The notes below the pieces were generated by a model that saw nothing but the letters and a program-made list of their open reading frames with translations, searched no databases and was not told the origin of the DNA. The translations under genes were made by a program, and so were the position numbers. From assembly GCF_009363075.1 (NCBI RefSeq), contig NZ_CP045293.1, positions 1,054,001 to 1,118,000 on the forward strand: a DNA stretch of 64,000 nt, written 5' to 3'. Shown one piece after another: positions 39,624 through 41,653 of the stretch (positions within the stretch are counted from its first letter, which is position 1; every line of letters begins with the position of its first letter). Origin of the DNA: Paenibacillus guangzhouensis. GTDB lineage: Bacteria; Bacillota; Bacilli; Paenibacillales; Paenibacillaceae.

Positions 39624-39762
39624 TCCCATCATGTTATTGATGTGATCGTTACAAAAAGGATGTAGTGCAATTAATTGGCAATCGTCTTTAGCCATATGTT
39701 ACAATAATGCCTATATCATTACTTCTCGAACATTCGTGAGGATCTGAGAGGTGACTGGCCCA

Positions 39763-40119
39763 ATGGACAATCCAAGAGTAACGTATTTTGGAATCGGATC
39801 TTTCGTGCTTATCATTTTATTAACGTTAGTATTCATGTTTCTGAATCCATATGGCGGTAAAGTCACTGTCCCAACGAAGTGGATTTGTGTCACGATGTTA
39901 CTGCTGCCAGCACTATCAGGGATTTTATTTTGGCTATCCAAGCGACGGGTCTTGTTAATCATTTCAATTCTTTGGATCTTTCCTTATTCGCTTTATCTTG
40001 GTCTAGCTTCCATCCCAAGTCTATGGAACCTGTATGTCTTGACGTTCATGATCAATTTGCTCGTACTCGTGCGCATTCGTAGGAAACCTTCCGTTGTGAA
40101 TACAAAAAAACGAACCTGA
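39763..40119 (+). CDS. Small membrane protein of unknown function
   Basis: The 118-residue product has four predicted membrane helices with short loops and a basic tail (RIRRKPSVVNTKKRT). I do not recognise the family. ATG 39763 lies 8 bases after GAGAGGTGA; the GTG at 39751 is inside that site. It is convergent with the agr-like genes, shares their terminator, and lies inside the direct-repeat boundaries. Confidence 0.7.
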   Translation: MDNPRVTYFGIGSFVLIILLTLVFMFLNPYGGKVTVPTKWICVTMLLLPALSGILFWLSKRRVLLIISILWIFPYSLYLGLASIPSLWNLYVLTFMINLLVLVRIRRKPSVVNTKKRT

Positions 40120-40146
40120 ATCGTCATTAAGGTTCGTTTTTTTTGT
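40104..40146. terminator. Bidirectional terminator between the membrane-protein gene and agrD
   Basis: AACGAACCT and AGGTTCGTT form a 9-bp stem with A7 on the left and T8 on the right, so it works for the plus-strand gene and for the minus-strand agrBCD-like operon. Confidence 0.9.
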
Positions 40147-40157
40147 ATATTCTTATG

Positions 40158-40283
40158 CTACTCTTCAGGTGATTCAAAGTCATACAATGGCCCAATACAA
40201 CTCGTGGATACAAAATCAACAATAGGAGCAAAAGCAGCAAGTACCAGCATAGTCAGAGATGCGAAAAATGATGTTTTTTTCAT
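40158..40283 (-). CDS. agrD: AgrD-like cyclic lactone autoinducer prepeptide
   Basis: A 41-residue peptide has the AgrD layout: a Lys start and hydrophobic amphipathic leader (MKKTSFFASLTMLVLAAFAP), a core with a single Cys (VSTSCIGPLYDF) and an acidic tail (ESPEE). AgrB would cleave after the core and form a thiolactone at the Cys; the ring could be C-I-G-P-L or C-I-G-P-L-Y. The ribosome site is near perfect (GGAAGGAGGTGATTGA before ATG), which suits a highly made peptide. It follows agrB and the receptor-like gene in one operon. Confidence 0.82.
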   Translation of the reverse strand: MKKTSFFASLTMLVLAAFAPIVDFVSTSCIGPLYDFESPEE

Positions 40284-40332
40284 TCAATCACCTCCTTCCC
40301 ATAGGCATGCTATATCGAGAGAAGAGTTGTTC

Positions 40333-41025
40333 CTATGGTCTGTAAGACTTTCTTTCGTTTTCTTCTTTGTTACGCTGCAGCGACATCACAATTAAGATGA
40401 AGAAACAAAGTAGAGAAGTTGTGATGCTAATATAAAAATTCATATTAATGTCTTCGCCATAGAAGTTCGGGAACGTGTATGCGATAAACAATAAGATCGC
40501 GATAGATATAACGATATAACGCACGGGGGATTTAAAATTGATTTTTTGCCCAAAAAGATTATTGAAATCAAAGGTTAAGGTATCCCCGAGTTTATGTACG
40601 ATGAACGAGATGAGACAAATGACTAGAAAGGTAGCCAGTTGAATGAAGTATGCTTTGGTTGTGTAGGGCGTTGCATCTTGCGGCTGAATTGTTTTGGTAA
40701 AGAGCAGCCCGTAGATGATCAGCAATTGTACGGATAGAACGAATATATATCCCGTAACACTGATCCAGATTGAATAGGTTTTATTTTGTTTAAACACAAA
40801 CCGCATAATGAGAACGACAGATGGTATCAGGATCCATAAGGAGAATCGTTGATAGCCGATATGGATGATGTAGTGAGAGACGATTGCAAGGACCGCAGTC
40901 GATGCAAGGATTTTGATCATCGTGCTTTTGTTCCGAAGCTTCAGATTAAACACACAAGTAATAAAAATGAAAATCGATGCAAAATCGACCATGGAAAAAA
41001 CATAAGGCAATATTATTGCCGCCAT
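40333..41025 (-). CDS. AgrC-like membrane sensor domain without kinase
   Basis: The 230-residue protein has six to seven membrane helices and ends shortly after the last in a basic helix (LQRNKEENERKSYRP). This is where AgrC receptors pass into their dimerisation and kinase domain. No HisKA, ATPase or other catalytic motif follows, and the 50 bp after the stop hold no kinase remnant. It overlaps agrB by 13 bp and precedes agrD. It could be a stand-alone peptide-binding or immunity protein, or a receptor working with a kinase encoded elsewhere. Assignment to AgrC rests on context and topology only. Confidence 0.6.
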   Translation of the reverse strand: MAAIILPYVFSMVDFASIFIFITCVFNLKLRNKSTMIKILASTAVLAIVSHYIIHIGYQRFSLWILIPSVVLIMRFVFKQNKTYSIWISVTGYIFVLSVQLLIIYGLLFTKTIQPQDATPYTTKAYFIQLATFLVICLISFIVHKLGDTLTFDFNNLFGQKINFKSPVRYIVISIAILLFIAYTFPNFYGEDINMNFYISITTSLLCFFILIVMSLQRNKEENERKSYRP

Positions 41026-41549
41026 AGCTTGTTCAGTCCTTTTTTAGTTAGTGGGATGAGTGTAAGAGATTGTATTAAAAAGGCCATTGCAAGAGTAGAT
41101 GATTCGATAAAATAAAGATTCATGAGTACACATAACAATGCTATGCTTTTTAATATTAGTTTGCTGTGTAGGGTGGGCTTTCCTTTGAGAATGGGTGCTA
41201 GAATAGCGAGTATGATGATCGCAAGATATGAAATTTGATTCATATATTCGGCATAGTTGAACATCGGAAGTACGATCAATAGTACGCTAGAGACGATATA
41301 ACAAGCCGTACTATCACTCAGGTGCCAGAGGCTGCCGCTCAGCATACGAAGGATCATAAACCCAAAGTAAAAAACCAAAAAAGATCCGACATGATGCATG
41401 ACAAGCGAGACGATGATTCCCGTCATAAGTACGGATGCATTGGTGAAGAACACATGCAGTTGAAAGATCGTTTTTTTCAGTGAAATCGGAGTGTATTTAC
41501 TGTGTTCGTATATGTATGTCCCTAGTTGGGTTGCAATTTTCTCGAGCAT
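41013..41549 (-). CDS. agrB: AgrB-family peptide-processing membrane protease
   Basis: AgrB cleaves the AgrD prepeptide and helps form and export the thiolactone signal. The 178 residues have five or six membrane helices and the catalytic pair His-x6-Cys in SLWHLSDSTAC, matching the His77/Cys84 spacing of S. aureus AgrB. The usual GG[AV]HA before the pair is altered to SGSLWH. The start is ATG 41549 after AAGGAAG. An extended -10 promoter lies upstream. Confidence 0.85.
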   Translation of the reverse strand: MLEKIATQLGTYIYEHSKYTPISLKKTIFQLHVFFTNASVLMTGIIVSLVMHHVGSFLVFYFGFMILRMLSGSLWHLSDSTACYIVSSVLLIVLPMFNYAEYMNQISYLAIIILAILAPILKGKPTLHSKLILKSIALLCVLMNLYFIESSTLAMAFLIQSLTLIPLTKKGLNKLWRQ

Positions 41550-41624
41550 AGTTCAACTTCTTCCTTCATGATCAGTTCGTCATGGATTCGTGTCGGATGA
41601 TGTTGTATGTTGGATGATACTGCA

Positions 41625-41653
41625 ATAATAGCACAAATGTACGAAAGTGTCGT
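41625..41653 (-). promoter_or_regulatory. Promoter of the agr-like operon
   Basis: On the minus strand ACGACA (41648-41653) and an extended -10 TGC-TATTAT (TATTAT at 41625-41630) are separated by 17 bp, about 75 bp before agrB. Confidence 0.55.

Follow-up and report, generated by a model that had tools for sequence, protein, structure and literature searches.

In the textbook account of the agr system, bacteria sense a peptide by means of a two-component phosphorelay. The 64,000-nucleotide stretch of the Paenibacillus guangzhouensis genome analysed here (the window) contains an agr-like locus whose receptor ends before the kinase, which raises the question of how such a locus would signal. 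The original prediction, made from the letters of the window, offered three answers: the peptide is sensed by a kinase elsewhere, the short receptor gives self-immunity, or the receptor signals without phosphorylation.

Gene content and conservation of the unit

The unit lies on the minus strand and comprises, in the order B-R-D, an AgrB-like peptidase, a short receptor-like membrane protein (R) and an AgrD-like precursor (D; Table 1). All three open reading frames were found where they had been placed, overlapping or closely spaced, with the R and AgrB genes sharing 13 nucleotides. AgrB scores above the cut-off of its Pfam family and has, as proposed, one H-x6-C, the putative catalytic pair H76 and C83; it is the single AgrB match in the genome. 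D has the expected 41 residues with its sole cysteine at residue 29, and R stops after 230 residues with no kinase following its stop codon in the window, so that the receptor does end where an AgrC would enter its kinase. Assigning all three proteins with family models worked for AgrB and not for R and D, neither of which matches a Pfam or NCBIfam family above cut-off.

P. terrigena, from the same genus, has the same B-R-D order and the same end point of R, with 84% identity in R and 82% in AgrB, so that the kinase-less arrangement does recur in a related genome (P. terrigena DSM 21567, L004, and G002 were taken to be a single genome, which enters the counts only once). By comparison of the two genomes, the B-R-D unit is more than a chance arrangement. 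A sequencing error or frameshift in R can be ruled out from this shared end and from the short R in 111 of 111 loci of the family survey described below, the window included; relatives with a kinase fused to the same gene, which would have pointed to an error here, were not found among them.

Behind D, a hairpin followed by a T-run closes the unit (z -5.42, with none of 200 shuffles equally stable on RNA folding); this terminator is absent from the list of a consensus scan, and it probably serves both D and the convergent gene at 39751-40119 (+). The latter encodes a 122-aa membrane protein without a family that is conserved in P. terrigena (dN/dS 0.092). Beyond it lies what we take to be a comM/yifB-like gene, and the unit is flanked on its other side by what is presumably a sucC-like gene. 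A promoter scan returned two sites against a shuffle mean of 7.3, i.e., fewer than expected by chance. An 11-bp direct repeat, ATCATCC(A/G)ACA, with a period of 17 is present upstream of AgrB (41591-41618, minus strand), and, by eye in the alignment of the two sequences, all but one of its bases are kept in P. terrigena. In addition, the segment 41798-42050, which starts ahead of the sucC-like gene and runs into it, shows only three mismatches to P. terrigena over approximately 250 nt, far below the synonymous-site divergence elsewhere between the two sequences. Rfam gave nothing in the window at the gathering threshold.

Table 1. Positions of the features discussed, in the window and in related loci.
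Feature	Sequence	Positions	Strand	Basis
AgrB-like membrane peptidase, 178 aa, H76-x6-C83	window	41013..41549	-	PF04647 E 1.1e-7; motif
R, kinase-free AgrC-type sensor domain, 230 aa	window	40333..41025	-	R profile matches AgrB-adjacent kinase and pseudokinases
AgrD-like signal peptide precursor D, 41 aa	window	40158..40283	-	compared with 99 pattern-found D peptides of relatives
Predicted thiolactone ring C29-I-G-P-L33, cut before Y34	window	40185..40199	-	inferred from spacing to E-x-P-x-E tail
Intrinsic terminator (hairpin and T-run) after D	window	40104..40144	-	RNA fold
Promoter-like site ACGACA-17-TATTAT, TG before second hexamer	window	41625..41653	-	kept in P. terrigena; weak
AgrC-like pseudokinase beside AgrB	L255	1933-3174
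AgrC-like pseudokinase beside AgrB	L256	3383-4603
AgrC-like pseudokinase beside AgrB	L257	3395-4645
Hydrolase-kinase-regulator module	L086	4683-8911
Hydrolase-kinase-regulator module	L087	3502-7719
Hydrolase-kinase-regulator module	L088	5009-14060

Relationship of R to AgrC sensor domains

An AlphaFold model built from a 19-row alignment predicts seven long helices for R, the last spanning residues 195-227, with a mean pLDDT of 74 and values below 65 in the C-terminal third. The PDB contains no sequence match to R, and its best fold match has an E-value of 0.24, with none at E<=0.001. More informative was a search of 250 Bacilli genomes with the R profile, in which 24 genomes matched with 31 rows: 27 are open frames of 193-250 aa, and four are proteins of 418-449 aa, every one of which adjoins AgrB. 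One of these long proteins (L258; R profile E 8.7e-8) has HATPase (PF02518, E 1.2e-19) and SpoOB-type domains and looks like an intact kinase. In the other three (L255-L257; R profile E 2.7e-16 to 5.0e-11), Pfam gives no kinase at E<=0.1, and an alignment with five Bacilli kinase-type proteins and the window genome's kinase, read by eye, shows no H, N or G box; since automatic motif patterns missed some boxes in kinase-type proteins, the motif loss in L255-L257 rests on the reading of this alignment together with Pfam. Because the same profile matches an AgrB-adjacent kinase and AgrB-adjacent pseudokinases, we describe R as an AgrC sensor domain: on profile evidence, R is homologous to AgrC sensors.

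The neighbours of these proteins vary as well. Two of the three pseudokinase loci have the order C-B-D-A and regulators with both a receiver and a LytTR domain, and in L255 no receiver-LytTR regulator is present in the stretch examined. In L264, R is short and stands with a regulator that has a receiver; in L259, a small LytTR gene and a gene for a receiver-bearing regulator occur together. Living genomes thus hold forms with an intact kinase, with a kinase that lacks its catalytic motifs and with no kinase, and with the receiver present or absent, which could mark stages on a path between two-component and kinase-free signalling. In a sensor-domain tree, a long branch leads to the window pair, which is joined to the only kinase outgroup; the tree program flags this join as possibly false. 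R of the third species of the genus falls apart from the pair. The tree is weakly rooted and therefore compatible with either kinase loss or kinase gain.

Distribution of R and its neighbours in Paenibacillaceae

With R of the window alone as query, 19 of 394 Paenibacillaceae genomes gave a match; with the 19-row profile, 243 of 388 did. We compiled 111 loci, i.e., 19 from the window and 18 relatives, one further locus of the same genus, and 11 plus 80 among the 388-genome matches listed; these are loci and not genomes, some genomes contributing two or three. Gene starts were set mechanically, giving overlong frames in L054, L060 and L134. R has 206-257 aa in all 111 loci, and therefore none of them carries a kinase on R.

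Classification with profiles built for this analysis gave R-B-LytTR as the commonest order (84 loci), followed by R-B (16), B-R (3) and R-B-LytTR-LytTR (2); rarer are R alone (2), R-LytTR (2), B-R-LytTR (1) and R with a divergent B (1). In R-B-LytTR loci, D lies behind B where looked at. The gene order of the window does differ from staphylococcal BDCA, as noted originally, yet B-R-D is itself rare in the family. AgrB is found within 3 kb of R in 107 of the 111 loci, two of these matches being only 42 and 74 aa long (L130 and L132). The four loci with no AgrB in reach retain D, either without (L180, L182) or together with a LytTR gene (L184, L192).

A pattern search identified a D peptide in 100 of the 111 loci; L052 and L085 have a candidate by eye, and nine further loci gave no pattern match. 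With the ring residue located by its constant distance from the tail, 76 of the 100 peptides have Ser, 19 Cys and four Ala at this position; at least one of the four (L190) looks like a register slip. The peptide left unplaced is that of the window, whose tail ends in PEE with the final L missing; aligned by eye, its predicted ring has the same spacing as in the relatives. The D gene has unusually few synonymous differences from P. terrigena, four in 28 sites: 0.14 per site, compared with 0.61-0.68 in R, AgrB and comM (chance approximately 5e-7), with 35-36 of 41 third positions kept. RNA folding of the D gene showed nothing unusual.

LytTR genes at and away from the locus

A second frequent neighbour of R is a LytTR gene, present within 3 kb in 89 of the 111 loci. 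Most of these genes are of single-domain size, two of the 89 being longer than 160 aa; that of L151 encodes 240 aa. A Pfam scan of seven small LytTR proteins detected no receiver in any of them; the LytTR domain itself scores above its cut-off in six (E 3.3e-7 to 5.1e-12) and at E 0.02 in the seventh.

This neighbourhood favours direct control of LytTR by R across the family. AgrB would cut and cyclise D into a small thiolactone (ring C-I-G-P-L in the window) and release it, and R, as a bare seven-helix AgrC sensor domain, would bind the cyclic peptide. In the family at large, peptide-bound R would then control the single-domain LytTR protein of the same operon by direct contact, the protein being held at the membrane or released from it, with this contact taking the place of kinase and receiver. 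Among the three original options, a receptor that signals without phosphorylation is the best supported one, which we infer from the R-LytTR neighbourhood of the relatives. Paenibacillaceae may have a widespread and hitherto undescribed form of peptide quorum sensing in which a bare AgrC sensor controls a single-domain LytTR protein without phosphorylation, the window representing a further stage that lacks LytTR at the locus; we put this forward tentatively, with slightly less than even confidence.

The window itself departs from the family pattern. The statement that no LytTR regulator follows holds for the window, its genus and some other loci (22 of the 111 lack LytTR within 3 kb) and does not hold for the system as a whole. 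A profile made from the relatives' LytTR proteins gave nothing at E<=1 in the six frames of the window (pieces of at least 25 aa), ruling out a hidden or broken LytTR gene there. In the whole genome, Pfam LytTR has three matches, all in longer frames (249, 415 and 260 aa), and a 47-row LytTR profile has two, in the frames of 249 and 415 aa. We extended this check to 22 genomes, namely those of the genus and 19 others that have an R locus without LytTR. In the three genomes of the genus, no single-domain LytTR was detected at E<=0.1, the one exception being a match in G002 (199-aa frame) that is both weak and partial. Outside the genus, G108, G066 and G168 likewise have no short LytTR frame genome-wide, and therefore the form without a regulator recurs; other genomes, e.g., G278, G209, G249, G087 and G031, do have a short LytTR frame elsewhere. 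With neither a LytTR gene at the locus nor a single-domain copy found in the genome, R must therefore have either a partner in trans or another role. The former would mean that in the window's genus R acts on another LytTR-type protein in trans, and our preferred account, which we rate just short of an even chance, is that the locus signals by an agr-type peptide and uses no phosphorelay, R working through such a protein.

The other role might be protection. R could bind the cell's own cyclic peptide as an immunity protein, decoy or scavenger, in this genus specifically, while the peptide acts on other cells. A unit without an output gene that is closed by a terminator after D would suit this, as would the failure to find a single-domain LytTR in the three genus genomes and the persistence of R with a D-like gene even where AgrB points the other way: in the third genome of the genus (G001), AgrB is divergent from R, a D-like gene lies behind R, and there is no LytTR at the locus. 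However, the proximity of R to LytTR in most of the family points to signalling, and we see no sign here of peptide toxicity. Self-immunity is in our view unlikely, if still a serious contender.

A candidate kinase elsewhere in the genome

A search with the R profile for a kinase that shares the sensor of R finds R alone in the window genome, even at E<=10. The genome does have a LytTR-linked pair at approximately 3.41 Mb, a 423-aa kinase with a 254-aa regulator, which could sense the peptide with R as an accessory. The pair has no AgrB beside it, and the one AgrB match in the genome is that of our locus. Comparable pairs form modules with a gene that, by eye, encodes a secreted serine hydrolase (LytTR-linked kinase of 420-423 aa, regulator of 254 aa; Table 1), two copies standing in tandem in G002. 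Their kinase halves are 93-98% identical, whereas the sensor halves are 67-68% identical between two types and 95-96% within a type, a split that looks like receptor specificity types and would be expected of peptide receptors. Against this, the sensor family of the 3.41-Mb kinase does not track R: it occurs in 89 of 275 genomes, and R is present in 37 of these 89 compared with 243 of 388 overall, the two samples being non-identical and the figures a comparison rather than a test. Moreover, all four copies seen adjoin the hydrolase gene, suggesting another role. We therefore do not favour this kinase as the partner of R. The idea of a peptide sensed by a kinase elsewhere finds little support in the one candidate family followed, and an accessory role for R beside the 3.41-Mb pair appears improbable.

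Selection on the unit

Compared with P. terrigena, AgrB has a dN/dS of 0.074 and R one of 0.083, values that are rough given dS above 1.2; two neighbouring genes, used as yardsticks, gave 0.038 and 0.092. In the window's genus, purifying selection appears to act on both R and AgrB. This bears on the possibility that the locus is a relic, with kinase and regulator lost and the remaining genes decaying or merely signalling to others. Such a history would account for the missing output component, the genus-restricted order and the locus without a LytTR gene. It fits poorly with the low dN/dS values, with a 230-aa frame that has stayed intact despite high divergence and with a short form common to every locus surveyed, and we consider it very doubtful. 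Least probable of all is a role for R in processing or export, in which it would assist AgrB or the D leader and would not act as a receptor. The closeness of AgrB to R in nearly all loci and the gene overlap in the window might suggest such a role; against it stand the four loci that have R with no AgrB in reach and the homology of R to the sensor portion of kinase-like proteins encoded beside AgrB.

Comparison with known systems

The preferred reading, peptide signalling by a bare AgrC sensor through a LytTR protein, has points in common with three known arrangements. With agr proper (AgrBDCA of Staphylococcus and Listeria), the unit shares an AgrB with H-x6-C and a sensor homologous to that of AgrB-adjacent kinases, and the window's relatives share the LytTR output domain. 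As in staphylococcal agr, the ring of the peptides, which opens with Cys or Ser, has four more residues and is followed by a tail of the E-x-P-x-E-L type. In contrast to agr, the AgrC histidine kinase is missing and only its sensor is present; there is no receiver-LytTR AgrA at the locus, a small LytTR gene standing in its place in most relatives examined; the order is B-R-D in the window and most often R-B-LytTR in the family; and the ring starts with Ser in most peptides of the R family, with Cys in a minority.

Pairs of agrB and agrD without agrC or agrA nearby also exist, e.g., in clostridia. They have in common with our locus a sender module without an adjacent kinase or regulator, and differ in that a kinase-less receptor-like membrane protein is kept and conserved here. 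Among the open-access titles and abstract openings listed, none describes an AgrC that lacks its kinase together with agrBD, or together with LytTR in Paenibacillus.

The third comparison is with LytTR Regulatory Systems (LRS), e.g., HdrRM and BrsRM of Streptococcus mutans, in which a membrane protein of another kind reportedly inhibits a LytTR regulator, no kinase being involved (PMC6193735). LRS and the window's relatives share a receiver-less LytTR protein near a multi-pass membrane protein, with no kinase (PMC6193735). In the R family, by contrast, the membrane protein is an AgrC sensor whose gene stands first in the order rather than last, agrB and agrD belong to the same unit, and the direct repeats of LRS promoters could not be clearly identified; at the window's locus, the LytTR regulator is missing as well. 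Regarding the repeats, those of LRS are 9 bp long and lie about 12 bp apart upstream of the promoter; such repeats with a period of 21 and eight of nine positions matching occur in 9% of 89 regions upstream of R operons compared with 3% of shuffles. After dereplication to 64 regions, z at 8/9 does not exceed 1.5, and at 7/9 there are 18 compared with 12.9 (z 1.6), so that, in sequence terms, period-21 repeats are not clearly enriched. Among the many periods tested, others lie above shuffles, i.e., 18 (z 4.5 and 2.7 at the two thresholds), 35 (1.8 and 2.5 at the two thresholds) and, at 7/9, 34 (z 3.4) and 12 (z 3.1). Because the gene order is reversed and the promoter direct repeats are not clearly enriched, we do not class the R family as LRS; by analogy, it may nevertheless work like one.

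If R works by direct contact, this would be a new output mode for agr that connects it with LRS, a class little studied so far, and the living forms would make up a natural series in which to ask how phosphorelays are lost from or added to two-component systems. The "cyclic lactone autoinducer" calls in Paenibacillus genomes (PMC10938842) would then not have to mean ordinary agr. Set beside agr, the clostridial pairs and LRS, the wider finding looks like a conserved kinase-free agr variant in Paenibacillaceae.
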